DNA from: Flammeovirgaceae bacterium
Lineage (GTDB): Bacteria > Bacteroidota > Bacteroidia > Cytophagales > Cyclobacteriaceae
Assembly: GCA_012032815.1 (NCBI GenBank)
Contig: JAAUQD010000010.1
Coordinates: forward strand, 1 to 44,854
Length of the DNA stretch: 44,854 nt
Direction of reading: 5' to 3'
Shown: piece after piece, positions 9,857 through 13,034 of the stretch
Layout: each line of letters begins with the position of its first letter
Position numbering within the stretch: position 1 is the first letter of the stretch
Position numbers and translations under genes: made by a program
Notes under the pieces: model-generated
Database searches by the model: none
What the model saw: only the letters and a program-made list of their open reading frames with translations
What the model was told of the DNA's origin: nothing

Positions 9857-10393
9857 ATGAAAAACGAGATCATAATTCCATTTCTGTTAGTACTTGCTGG
9901 TTGTACGTTTACGACCAGTCAAAACGGTGAAAAGAATGCAGAAACGACAAATCAAAAAAATGAAATCATGAATGACACAACACCAAAAGTTACGGGTATA
10001 GGAGGGATTTTTTTTAAATCAAAAAATCCGGATCAAACAAAAGAATGGTACGGCAAAAACCTTGGCTTATCCATCAGTGAGTACGGATCGTCTTTCGAAT
10101 TCAGAAATGCTAACCGGCCCGATGAAATCAATTATTTGCAATGGAGTACGTTTGATCAGGACACCAAATACTTTGATCCCTCTACTAAAGAATTCATGAT
10201 CAATTACCGAGTGCAAAATATTGAAGGCCTGGTTCGGCAGCTTAAAGCCAATGGGGTCACGGTTGTTGACGAAATAGAGACCTATGACTACGGAAAATTC
10301 GTCCACATTATGGATCCTGATGGAAATAAGATTGAATTATGGGAGCCCGTGGATATTGTTTTTACTAAAATGGGCGGCCCGACTACCAAGTAA
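9857..10393 (+). CDS. VOC (glyoxalase-fold) family protein with lipoprotein signal
   Basis: A 178-residue protein. Residues 1-16 form a lipoprotein signal ending in the lipobox LAGC (Cys16), then a low-complexity linker of about 25 residues, then a VOC domain (about 45-170): GIGGIFFKSKNPDQTKEWYGKNLGL at the start and FVHIMDPDGNKIELWEP at the end, with the Glu of IELWE in a metal-ligand position. VOC relatives in Bacteroidota are usually cytoplasmic and would begin near Met38 (MNDTTPK), which is an alternative start here. If the upstream ATG is used the protein is a membrane-anchored periplasmic VOC protein. The stop is three bases before the mnmE-like repeat. Confidence 0.8.
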   Translation: MKNEIIIPFLLVLAGCTFTTSQNGEKNAETTNQKNEIMNDTTPKVTGIGGIFFKSKNPDQTKEWYGKNLGLSISEYGSSFEFRNANRPDEINYLQWSTFDQDTKYFDPSTKEFMINYRVQNIEGLVRQLKANGVTVVDEIETYDYGKFVHIMDPDGNKIELWEPVDIVFTKMGGPTTK

Positions 10394-10395
10394 GG

Positions 10396-10424
10396 TTACT
10401 TCCCGATACAGAACTTTGAAAAGA
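10396..10424 (-). repeat. Distal direct repeat: second copy of the mnmE 3' end (att-like)
   Basis: Read on the minus strand this encodes FSKFCIGK and a TAA stop, identical in peptide to the mnmE C-terminus. Compared with the true gene end (11637-11665) 26 of 28 aligned bases (10397-10424) match, including TACTTCCCGATACA. Over the final nine codons the three differences are all synonymous third positions (Ser, Phe, stop). Confidence 0.82.
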
Positions 10425-10480
10425 CTTTTTTTTTAATGACTCTTACGAATCTACGGTCCATGACAAATGCTTGAGATCCT

Positions 10481-11077
10481 TTATGATCGGGCAAAAGTCA
10501 TCAATAATCTGTAATCACCATTGTCGGCAGTTTTTAAGGCTTTTAGATATGCAGTCCTGCTATCCTCCTCGTTGCTTATGTTAGCAGCACCCCAACTGAA
10601 AACAGGTGACTTGAATATTTTATCAATAATTATATCGGCCATTAGTCTGCTGTGTCTGCCGTTGCCATTTGAAAAGCAATGAATGCTTACCAGGCGGTGC
10701 TTAAAACGAATTGCTAGTTCTTCGGGGAGGTAGGTGTCATGTTCTGCCCAGAAGATAGCATCATCCAATAGCGCTTTTAATTCTGTAGAAACTCGCCAAT
10801 TGTCTACCCCAATATTTTTATTAGTTTTTCTGAACTCTCCTGCCCAACTCCAAACCTGATTATACATGCGTTTATGGACTTCCCTCACAAAGGTTTCAGA
10901 AAAAATATCTTGTTGTTTGAAGTTCCGCGTTAAGGTCCATTGTATAGCTTGTTCAATATTTTGTTGTTCAAACTCGTCTAACTCACCACGGGTAGCTATA
11001 GTAGGTATAAGCAATCCCTCTTTTTCATCATCTTCTAATGGAGTTTGGCCGTCTACATAGTCTAAATCTAATCCCAT
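10481..11077 (-). CDS. Mobile mystery protein B (Fic/DOC domain protein)
   Basis: A 198-residue Fic-domain protein. The catalytic loop reads HCFSNGNGRHSR (about residues 133-144), matching HxFxxGNGRxxR. It also has a characteristic EEKEG-like start (LEDDEKEGLLIP) and the VREVHKRMYNQVWSWAGEFRKTNKNIGV segment seen in mobile mystery protein B. Fic enzymes transfer AMP or other phosphate-linked groups to target proteins. The histidine and the GNGR anion-binding loop are intact, so activity is plausible. The start overlaps the mobile mystery A stop by 10 bases, so the two are made together. I see no clear self-inhibitory Fic helix motif. The target is unknown. Confidence 0.86.
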   Translation of the reverse strand: MGLDLDYVDGQTPLEDDEKEGLLIPTIATRGELDEFEQQNIEQAIQWTLTRNFKQQDIFSETFVREVHKRMYNQVWSWAGEFRKTNKNIGVDNWRVSTELKALLDDAIFWAEHDTYLPEELAIRFKHRLVSIHCFSNGNGRHSRLMADIIIDKIFKSPVFSWGAANISNEEDSRTAYLKALKTADNGDYRLLMTFARS

Positions 11078-11525
11078 AAAATCTTAGGCCTTTCGTTTAC
11101 AATTTTTGCTGCCCTTTCCTTAATGGCTTTCTCAATCCGCTTTTTAGAATTAGCCTGATCTTCCAGCTTCATCGTGTTGGCTGTACGGTGCACTATTTTG
11201 GTTGCCAGTTTTATAGCATATTTTTTTATCATAGCCTCCAACGATCCATCATTGGGTACAAAGCCATACACGAGCTGCATATCCATTGCTCTTGCTATTT
11301 CTTTCAAAGACTTGATGGTAATTGAACCGTCAGCCTCACGTTTCTCGATATCCTGAATGGCCTGCTTGGAAACAGAAAGTTTGCTTCCCAATTGAAGCAT
11401 GGACATACCAATAGAGGTACGGATAGCCTTAATCCAGCCTGTTGGAGGAACAGCTATCTGCCTAAGGGAGGTAAAACCTAACATTTTACTGTTTAACTGC
11501 TCCAGTTGAAGTTTTTTTTACTCAT
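11068..11525 (-). CDS. Mobile mystery protein A (HTH protein; N-terminus frameshifted)
   Basis: A small DNA-binding protein with an XRE-type helix-turn-helix: GWIKAIRTSIGMSMLQLGSKLSVSKQAIQDIEKREADGSITIKSL, then LVYGFVPNDGSLEAMIKKYA and TANTMKLEDQA, as in mobile mystery protein A. The ORF track begins at 11484. Upstream, ATG 11525 opens MSK, and one more A in an eight-A run (11512-11519) joins it in frame to KKLQLEQLNSKMLGFTSL, which is the usual N-terminus. It likely represses its own promoter and may control the Fic partner, as in toxin-antitoxin pairs. The toxin-antitoxin role is inference. Confidence 0.83.
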
Positions 11526-11554
11526 AACATGAAATTTAGATTGACTTAATAGAT

Positions 11555-11610
11555 CAAAAGTAAAGCTATAACTTGACAATAGCAATTGTAAAGTAAAGTT
11601 ATAACTTGAC
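11555..11610 (-). promoter_or_regulatory. Promoter and repeated operator for the mobile mystery pair
   Basis: Two 21-base direct repeats with one mismatch lie at 11557-11577 and 11590-11610, 33 bases apart. The second contains the perfect palindrome AAGTTATAACTT (11596-11607). On the minus strand TACTTTTG (11562-11555) matches the -7 element TAnnTTTG, with TTG 20 bases upstream. The repeats cover the promoter, as expected for autorepression by the HTH protein. Confidence 0.6.
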
Positions 11611-11636
11611 CAAATTATGATGATCAAAATAAGGAT

Positions 11637-11665
11637 CTACTTCCCGATACAAAACTTGGAAAAGA
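11637..11665 (-). repeat. Proximal direct repeat: 3' end of mnmE (att-like)
   Basis: This is the last part of the mnmE coding sequence (FSKFCIGK, TAG stop). It is the proximal partner of the copy at 10396-10424, in the same orientation, and would be the recombination site used by an incoming element. Confidence 0.8.
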
Positions 11666-13034
11666 TGTTTTCTAAAAGGTCATCAGTGGTAATGGTACCA
11701 GTTATTTCACCCAGGTAGTGCAACGCCTGCCTGATGTCCATCGCTAGTAAATCTCCGGTTACACTTCCGTTTAAACCAATCAATACTCTATCCAGCGATT
11801 CTTTGGTTTGTGATAATTTTTCGAAATGGCGGAGGTTAGTCACCAGCACATCACCTGTCTTTACACTGCTCCATTGAAACATGGAAAGTATCTTTTCTTT
11901 CAGTTCTTCAATGTGTTCATTGTGCTTCGCTGAAATGAAGATAAAATCTTCTTTTCTCAACGTATCGATTAATTCAGCATCAGCTTTATCCAGTTTGTTT
12001 CCAACCTTTATAAACGGAATACCAAGTTCAATCAAATCCTTTGTCTCTTTTTTAATTTCGTCAGCAGTCGTATTGGTCAGATCTACCATATAGATGATCA
12101 GCGAAGCTTTTTTCATCTTTTCTCGGGTACGTTCCACACCCATGGCTTCAATTATATCCTTGGTATCACGAAGTCCTGCTGTATCAATAAATCTAAAATT
12201 GATTCCGCCCAAAACAATTTCATCTTCAATGGAATCGCGCGTGGTGCCCGCAATATCCGAGACAATGGCCTTTTCTTCGTTGAGCAGTACATTCAACAAA
12301 GTGGATTTTCCAGCATTAGGTTTTCCGGCAATCACCGTTGGCACTCCGTTCTTGATCACATTTCCCTGATCAAAGGATTGAATGAGCTTTTGTAAATAGG
12401 ATTGGATTTTTAGAATGAGTGCTTTGAGGTCATCCCGTTTTGCAAATTCCACATCTTCCTCACCAAAGTCCAGTTCCAGTTCAATCAGGGATGCAAAATG
12501 AATAAGTTCTTCGCGTAGCTGGTTAATCTCATTCGAAAATCCACCACGCATCTGGTTTATTGCTACCTGCCGTGCATTATTCGTTTCGGCATTGATCAAA
12601 TCCGCCACCGCCTCGGCCTGAGCCAGATCAAACCGGCCATGAAGAAATGCTCTCTTGGTAAATTCACCGGGTTCGGCCAATCGCGTCCCTTTTTCAATCA
12701 GGAGTTTGATGATTTCCTGAATGATCACCGGTGAACCGTGACACGAAATCTCCACCATATTTTCAGTCGTGAACGATTTGGGTTCTTTGAAAAGTGAAAC
12801 CAGGACTTCATCAATGATCTGTTTCTCATTATTACGTATGGTTCCAAAATGAATAGTGTGCGTATTCTGATCAATTAACTTCTTGCCATAAAATACCTGA
12901 TCTGCTATTTGAATAGCCTCTGTACCTGAAAGCCGGATCACAGCAATGCCGCTGACACCTTCTGCTGTACTTAACGCAACTATCGTATCGTGTGCACTCA
13001 AGATTAAATTCTGAATTTTATTTTTCGCGTACAA
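11637..13034 (-). CDS. mnmE: tRNA-modification GTPase MnmE
   Basis: MnmE works with MnmG to modify the wobble uridine of certain tRNAs. The 465-residue product has the N-terminal folate-binding domain (about 15-130), a helical domain, and an inserted Ras-like G domain (about 228-385) with G1 GKPNAGKS, G2 region AGTTRD, G3 DTAGL and G4 NKLD. It ends in the conserved FCIGK, whose cysteine is catalytically important. The ORF opens at ATG 13034, overlapping mntH by 17 bases. A TTG at 13001 giving MSAHDTIVAL fits other MnmE proteins better, so the start is uncertain. Third gene of the mntR-mntH cluster. Its 3' end is the att-like site described separately. Confidence 0.95.
   Translation of the reverse strand: MYAKNKIQNLILSAHDTIVALSTAEGVSGIAVIRLSGTEAIQIADQVFYGKKLIDQNTHTIHFGTIRNNEKQIIDEVLVSLFKEPKSFTTENMVEISCHGSPVIIQEIIKLLIEKGTRLAEPGEFTKRAFLHGRFDLAQAEAVADLINAETNNARQVAINQMRGGFSNEINQLREELIHFASLIELELDFGEEDVEFAKRDDLKALILKIQSYLQKLIQSFDQGNVIKNGVPTVIAGKPNAGKSTLLNVLLNEEKAIVSDIAGTTRDSIEDEIVLGGINFRFIDTAGLRDTKDIIEAMGVERTREKMKKASLIIYMVDLTNTTADEIKKETKDLIELGIPFIKVGNKLDKADAELIDTLRKEDFIFISAKHNEHIEELKEKILSMFQWSSVKTGDVLVTNLRHFEKLSQTKESLDRVLIGLNGSVTGDLLAMDIRQALHYLGEITGTITTDDLLENIFSKFCIGK

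Follow-up and report, generated by a model that had tools for sequence, protein, structure and literature searches.

The window, by which we mean the whole 44,854-nucleotide stretch from a Flammeovirgaceae bacterium analysed here, probably carries a CIME-like toxin-antitoxin (TA) cassette at the mnmE (trmE) attachment site, that is, a non-autonomous unit that is bounded by att sites and has no integrase. A unit of this kind at this type of hotspot is already known in principle. Judging from the parts of the open-access literature that were covered, what is new is that one TA pair recurs as an integrase-less miniature at a single site across a phylum, and that arms are common to integrase-bearing and integrase-less units.

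The mnmE gene (11637..13034, minus strand, 465 aa) matches NF003661 (416 bits) and TIGR00450 (392 bits); the target of the insertion is its 3' end. The proximal att core (attL) consists of the gene's last 18 bp, TTTTGTATCGGGAAGTAG (11637..11654, minus strand), similarity running on to about 11671. A displaced mnmE end, TTCTGTATCGGGAAGTAA (10396..10413, minus strand), forms the distal core (attR), and here similarity to mnmE runs on to about 10430. Taken over 34 nt (11638-11671 for mnmE's own copy and 10397-10430 for the other, both on the minus strand), the repeats are 88% identical and lie 1,241 bp apart. As the original prediction had it, the nine codons of FSKFCIGK-stop show only three differences, all synonymous; the final 18 bp differ at two of 18 positions. 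The 1.24-kb cassette body (10414..11636, minus strand) comprises an attL-side arm, operators, mobA, mobB and an attR-side arm. According to the ORF list and family searches, mobB and mobA are the only genes between the two copies, and no integrase, relaxase, transfer or other gene was found in the body. Beyond the cassette lies a VOC/glyoxalase-like gene (9857..10393, plus strand), whose stop is 2 nt from the distal core. The cassette thus retains both attL and attR, at a known integration site.

Could the repeat be due to chance or to faulty assembly? The assembly is a metagenome-assembled genome (84.8% complete) broken into 202 contigs, which would favour an artefact. However, the degenerate 18-mer TTYTGYATHGGNAARTRR matches only two places in the whole assembly, namely the two copies, so the repeat is not a chance similarity; in 63 genomes of the window's genus the same 18-mer occurs about once per genome, mostly at mnmE. 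Furthermore, the longest exact run common to the two copies is 14 nt, which should be too short for k-mer misassembly through the repeat, and other genomes show this architecture independently. Chance or artefact is accordingly scarcely credible as an explanation.

The cargo is a two-gene operon. The first gene, mobA (11068..11484, minus strand), encodes 'mobile mystery protein A', an Xre-type HTH protein (TIGR02612, 139 bits against a cut-off of 122.6; HTH_3) that is a putative antitoxin and autoregulator. The second, mobB (10481..11077, minus strand), encodes 'mobile mystery protein B', a putative toxin with the Fic domain PF02661 (TIGR02613, 247 bits against a cut-off of 124.4). The pair thus agrees with the mobile mystery A/B families, both proteins scoring above the NCBIfam cut-offs and the HTH gene preceding an overlapping Fic gene (the two genes share 10 nt, from the mobB start to the mobA stop). 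In the mobA promoter region, a repeat search found two operator-like repeats, AAAGTAAAGYTATAACTTGAC, 33 bp apart (11557..11610), with the palindrome consensus GTAAAGTTATAACTTTAC. Of 79 loci, 61 have an operator-like palindrome upstream of mobA (shuffles gave 0.65), the commonest spacing being 33 bp, and in 76 of the 80 nearest loci mobB comes immediately after mobA. The gene order, the overlap and the upstream palindromes support the view that mobA and mobB form an autoregulated module. The repeats at 11557-11610 were also considered as integrase arm sites; this was rejected because the same 33-bp-spaced palindromes precede mobA away from mnmE.

The Fic motif of the window's mobB is HCFSNGNGRHSR, and HxFxxGNGRHSR, or HxFxNGNGRHSR with the Asn written out, occurs in 74 of 81 mobB-family sequences. 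The overlapping operon, the Xre-type partner, the upstream operator-like palindromes and the motif HxFxxGNGRxxR all recall Fic-type/HTH TA systems; the difference is that the mobB members read have Asn at the residue that is acidic in the usual HPFx(D/E)GNGR. By sequence, the solved relatives of mobB are Fic adenylyltransferases (FICD, NmFic), and the Fic/HTH module matches the PADLOC candidate family PDC-S04 (68 bits). No experiments on the mobA/mobB family were found in the open-access literature. On these sequence features, the operon most likely acts as a TA module in which one product is predicted to be toxic and to be neutralised by the other, so that the addiction module originally proposed is probable. 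Comparison of starts shows that the mobA frame of the window begins about 14 codons inside that of its relatives, an eight-A run after the upstream mobA ATG (11484-11530) putting that ATG out of frame with respect to them. The shift may be real, or may reflect decay, sequencing error or slippage.

Is the link with mnmE peculiar to the window? It had been suggested that genomes be searched for mobile mystery A/B beside mnmE with repeated ends, and such loci do exist. We scanned GTDB-species genomes having mobA across the phylum and took the nearest 80 loci, all of which have mobB. In 16 of the 80 the 18-bp mnmE end lies upstream of mobA, always on the mob strand, and this is so in 10 of the 13 nearest; by our own estimate (6 kb per 4 Mb), a same-strand mnmE within 6 kb upstream is expected by chance in about 0.1 of 80. 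Intact mnmE lies within 0.4 kb of the pair in four loci (L204, L205, L234, L264). Some other linked pairs come after a displaced end with an arm like the far arm seen in integrase-bearing elements, most clearly in L202 and L207, indicating that an element has inserted between mnmE and the mob pair. In four loci besides the window, an mnmE end stands on either side of the pair and no integrase was found in the stretch so enclosed. These are L205, L209 and L234, of 2.05, 4.7 and 1.47 kb respectively (the distal copy in L234 including about 180 nt of mnmE), and L206, whose 5.0 kb also contain Septu PtuA (309 bits) and PtuB (165 bits). No second mnmE end was detected in the linked loci L202, L203, L204, L207, L208, L212, L214, L221 and L264. 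In L205 (5645-7698), each mnmE end is followed, after its core, by the same 76-nt sequence, as would be seen if two tandem units had one left arm in common.

In the mobA/B tree, linkage to mnmE is clustered (11 changes against a shuffled mean of 16.0, with none of 500 shuffles as low). Most linked rows fall in one clade, in which Chitinophagaceae and Sphingobacteriaceae are intermingled with the window's genus, support being weak on many branches; a search for degenerate mnmE ends in the unlinked members of this clade gave none. In the window's family, mobA occurs in 30 of 297 genomes and lies within 1.5 kb of an mnmE end only in the window's. The mobA-positive genomes of this family gave no further linked case, and it was the phylum-wide scan alone that brought the link to light. 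The link thus belongs to one branch of the mobA/B family and not to all mobA/B pairs. The family name records mobile contexts and implies no mechanism, whereas here one clade is tied to the mnmE 3' end and to att-bounded cassettes.

A second mnmE-linked pair in the window's genus (G001, locus L203) bears on the possibility that the Fic/HTH operon is simply an ordinary neighbour of mnmE, the distal repeat having been left by an unrelated transient element. Homology between the window and G001 ends at the operon borders, and the operon of G001/L203, L202, L207, L208, L212 and L221 lies after a displaced end, no further end being found, as such accretion would predict. Against it stand the five two-sided cases with their differing lengths, the scatter of hosts within one mobA/B clade, and the presence of the pair at this position in only two known members of the window's genus. 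We therefore judge accretion improbable, while acknowledging that the several linked pairs with no detectable second end, and the usual location of the pair away from mnmE in the wider family, count against the att-bounded cassette that we prefer.

In G077 (L069:1900-4800) and L234 (5500-7200) the duplicated part of the mnmE 3' end is longer, at about 170-180 nt or more, and flanks a Bro-N gene and the mob pair, respectively; a different insertion route may operate in these two cases. The G077 locus was rejected as a cassette because it is a long segmental duplication of the end of mnmE plus the next gene. Both cases are what insertion by homologous recombination would look like, a circle or fragment with a 3' piece of mnmE recombining with the gene and no tyrosine recombinase being involved. 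The window repeat, however, spans only some 34 nt at 88% identity and has the 18-bp integrase site at its centre, in which it resembles the displaced ends that integrase-bearing elements leave. For the window such a route is about as improbable as accretion.

What, then, occupies this site in related genomes? In nine genomes of the window's genus (G041, G043, G035, G001, G023, G049, G037, G051 and G445) a conserved gene pair directly follows the mnmE stop. It encodes an HTH_17 protein of about 120 aa with a Cys-rich start and a tyrosine recombinase of about 375 aa with Arm-DNA-bind_5, Phage_int_SAM_5 (SAM_5) and Phage_integrase domains. Displaced 18-bp mnmE ends mark the far side of the elements at 3.6 kb in G041, 7 kb in G023 and 27 kb in G445. 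In G446 the sequence gcggcacgccatccc comes after mnmE on one contig and after an element end with its core on a second contig. As the same sequence follows both the mnmE end and the element core, G446 has an unoccupied site as well as a right junction. Another family of the order has a 71%-identical integrase at mnmE (G107), and the integrase family lies beside mnmE ends in nine IMG/VR contigs. These contigs (L086-L088, L090-L094 and L096) are catalogued as viral, and L096 has both mnmE ends, about 9.8 kb apart. The small Cys-rich HTH_17 protein (L067:5546-5908 and homologues), which lies nearly always between mnmE and the integrase, is possibly an excisionase. Further matches to displaced ends from the order-wide search (G261, G426, G431, G427, G357, G247, G114, G202 and G137) were set aside, no mnmE having been found in the roughly 16-18 kb covered upstream. 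In the open-access text covered we found no description of mnmE cassettes or of Arm-DNA-bind_5/SAM_5 mnmE integrases in Bacteroidota.

The original prediction likened the site to that of SGI1, and with regard to the DNA target this holds. The SGI1 att site in Gammaproteobacteria is the last 18 bp of trmE/mnmE (PMC2297512), and the window cores at 10396-10413 and 11637-11654 are this same 18-bp target; tandem arrays of different islands at the trmE/mnmE site are also on record (PMC9035990, PMC7449626). With regard to the enzymes the comparison fails, SGI1 being an analogue only: the Bacteroidota integrases at the mnmE end are a tyrosine-recombinase family separate from the SGI1 integrases. SGI1 is moreover a 42-kb mobilizable island that itself encodes Int, Xis and mobilisation functions and is served by an IncC helper, features that the window unit lacks. 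Since its 1.24-kb body contains mobA/B only, with none of the SGI1 backbone (int, xis, rep, traN/G/H, mpsAB, oriT), we did not file it as SGI1-related. SGI1 also qualifies the proposal that the element brought in a donor copy of the mnmE end. In SGI1 the gene-side junction holds the last 9 bp of the element and the far junction holds native bases (PMC9035990, PMC2297512). This rule, together with G446, makes it probable that the distal copy ends in the host's native bases and the proximal copy in bases brought by the element. A donor copy would therefore account for half of each repeat.

Integrase-less units are found at this site in the genus g32 as well. Three species have six displaced mnmE ends with a common 43-nt arm upstream of the core (about ccttaacactatcaaaaacgtagattttaggggtgttagtaag). 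One of the six forms the right end of a 23.6-kb element in G147 that has an integrase; the remaining five terminate units in which neither the family search nor BLAST with mnmE integrases found an integrase, and whose cargo is NACHT, AbiE, HipST, HipBA or other genes. For instance, three successive mnmE ends in G091 enclose first a NACHT protein and next an AbiEi/AbiEii pair; in G147 a 2.0-kb unit, in which HipA is split, comes after the 23.6-kb element; and G200 has two units, one of which contains HipBA. In G134 and G266, mnmE runs straight into tgtaatactaaaaatagtatatagat, the sequence found past the distal copy in G200; G175 has the same join with a few differences, and their MnmE proteins are 98-99% identical. 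As the distal flank of G200 joins mnmE directly in these sister species, their site is empty, so that for these comparable cassettes the empty-site comparison proposed in the original prediction comes out as expected.

Two further observations concern the g32 loci. A 1,398-aa NACHT protein with an NNH5 N-terminal domain lies at mnmE in both G091 (L068:5167-9363) and G175 (L195:656-4852), the two being 80% identical; it has no match in PADLOC-DB 2.0.0. Past the mnmE units in G121, G134, G266 and G200 (L191, L192, L193 and L199, respectively) lies a conserved block with a large SMC-like ATPase that is Wadjet-like by eye, and the two proteins tested from this block had no match in PADLOC.

CIMEs are described as being bounded by attL and attR and having neither integration nor transfer genes (PMC5704250). 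The window unit fits this description, and integrase-bearing elements occupy the same site in related genomes, as expected for a CIME. Units of this type have also been reported in tandem with integrase-bearing elements (PMC5704250). The original claim of an integrase-less, att-bounded insertion is supported, and it is strengthened by the finding of this pair beside mnmE ends elsewhere in Bacteroidota and by the shared arms in g32. Classical CIMEs, however, are described as decayed ICEs or IMEs (PMC5704250), whereas here very small TA or defence units recur at one site in several lineages, and the g32 units share arms with an integrase-bearing element although their cargo is unrelated.

Is the window cassette then a frozen relic of an element that lost its integrase and transfer genes by deletion, so that the TA operon was left, now immobile, between attL and attR? 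Decay is the usual account of how CIMEs arise (PMC5704250), and the poly-A-shifted start of mobA is compatible with it. The original prediction advised looking for an SGI1-like integrase elsewhere in the genome; no integrase of the mnmE family was found in the assembly, which is about 85% complete and has three PF00589 genes with only some 22-28% identity over long alignments. The junction arms of the cassette, too, match no arm family found in integrase-bearing elements and are thus not common to local elements. Among 97 relatives of the window species, the nearest MnmE is 78% identical, and gene order past mnmE differs. On the other hand, the sharing of an integrase-bearing element's arm by g32 units with unrelated cargo fits repeated mobilisation in trans better than separate decays, and several two-sided mob cassettes of differing sizes exist. 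We regard a relic as a real possibility, albeit one that falls well short of even. If the att-bounded cassette is accepted as such, the chances are a little better than even that it was mobilised in trans and a little worse that it is a relic.

From the anatomy of the cassette and from the g32 units we infer the following route for an att-bounded cassette mobilised in trans. A circular form with an mnmE-like attP would recombine with the mnmE end, replacing the last codons of mnmE by a synonymous copy, leaving the MnmE protein sequence unchanged, and displacing the original end to the far side of the cassette. Strand exchange would be performed in trans, most likely by an mnmE-specific Arm-DNA-bind_5/SAM_5 tyrosine recombinase supplied by the full-size elements that use the same site in the window's genus. 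Once integrated, the operon would stabilise the insertion: the HTH protein would repress from the array of 33-bp-spaced palindromes and neutralise the Fic enzyme, so that loss of the cassette would be penalised.

A broader, tentative proposal, to which we give slightly less than an even chance, is that the Bacteroidota mnmE 3' end is a cassette-collecting site at which the recombinases of full-size elements serve small cassettes in trans. The pool would include Fic/HTH, HipBA, HipST, AbiE, NACHT and Septu units with matching att arms. If this is so, mobile mystery A/B is one common passenger of the site, and the site amounts to an integron-like acquisition system on the tail of a housekeeping gene. 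The likeness to integron cassettes is one of logic only (small integrase-less units in arrays, a fixed site, service by a recombinase in trans); a repeated gene end takes the place of attC here, and the integron integrase is not involved. In any event, the 'mobile mystery' pair can now be assigned to a definite site, with a route of spread that is open to testing, and defence and TA genes may travel as tiny integrase-less units that share att arms with larger elements and that tools seeking integrases miss. This bears on the formation of defence islands in Bacteroidota. It also extends the trmE/mnmE hotspot of SGI1 in Gammaproteobacteria, the same 18 bp being used by a separate recombinase family in another phylum.

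It is of note that G043, one of the nine genomes with the recombinase at mnmE, has four displaced mnmE ends (C1:118384-274357; L070-L072) that lie 120-156 kb from mnmE. They share an arm family of their own, the third, taacgYattgacattYaa. A 2.55-kb unit with AraC and DoxX genes, inside which no integrase was found, lies between displaced ends, and the cargo of the units that these ends delimit is partly metabolic.
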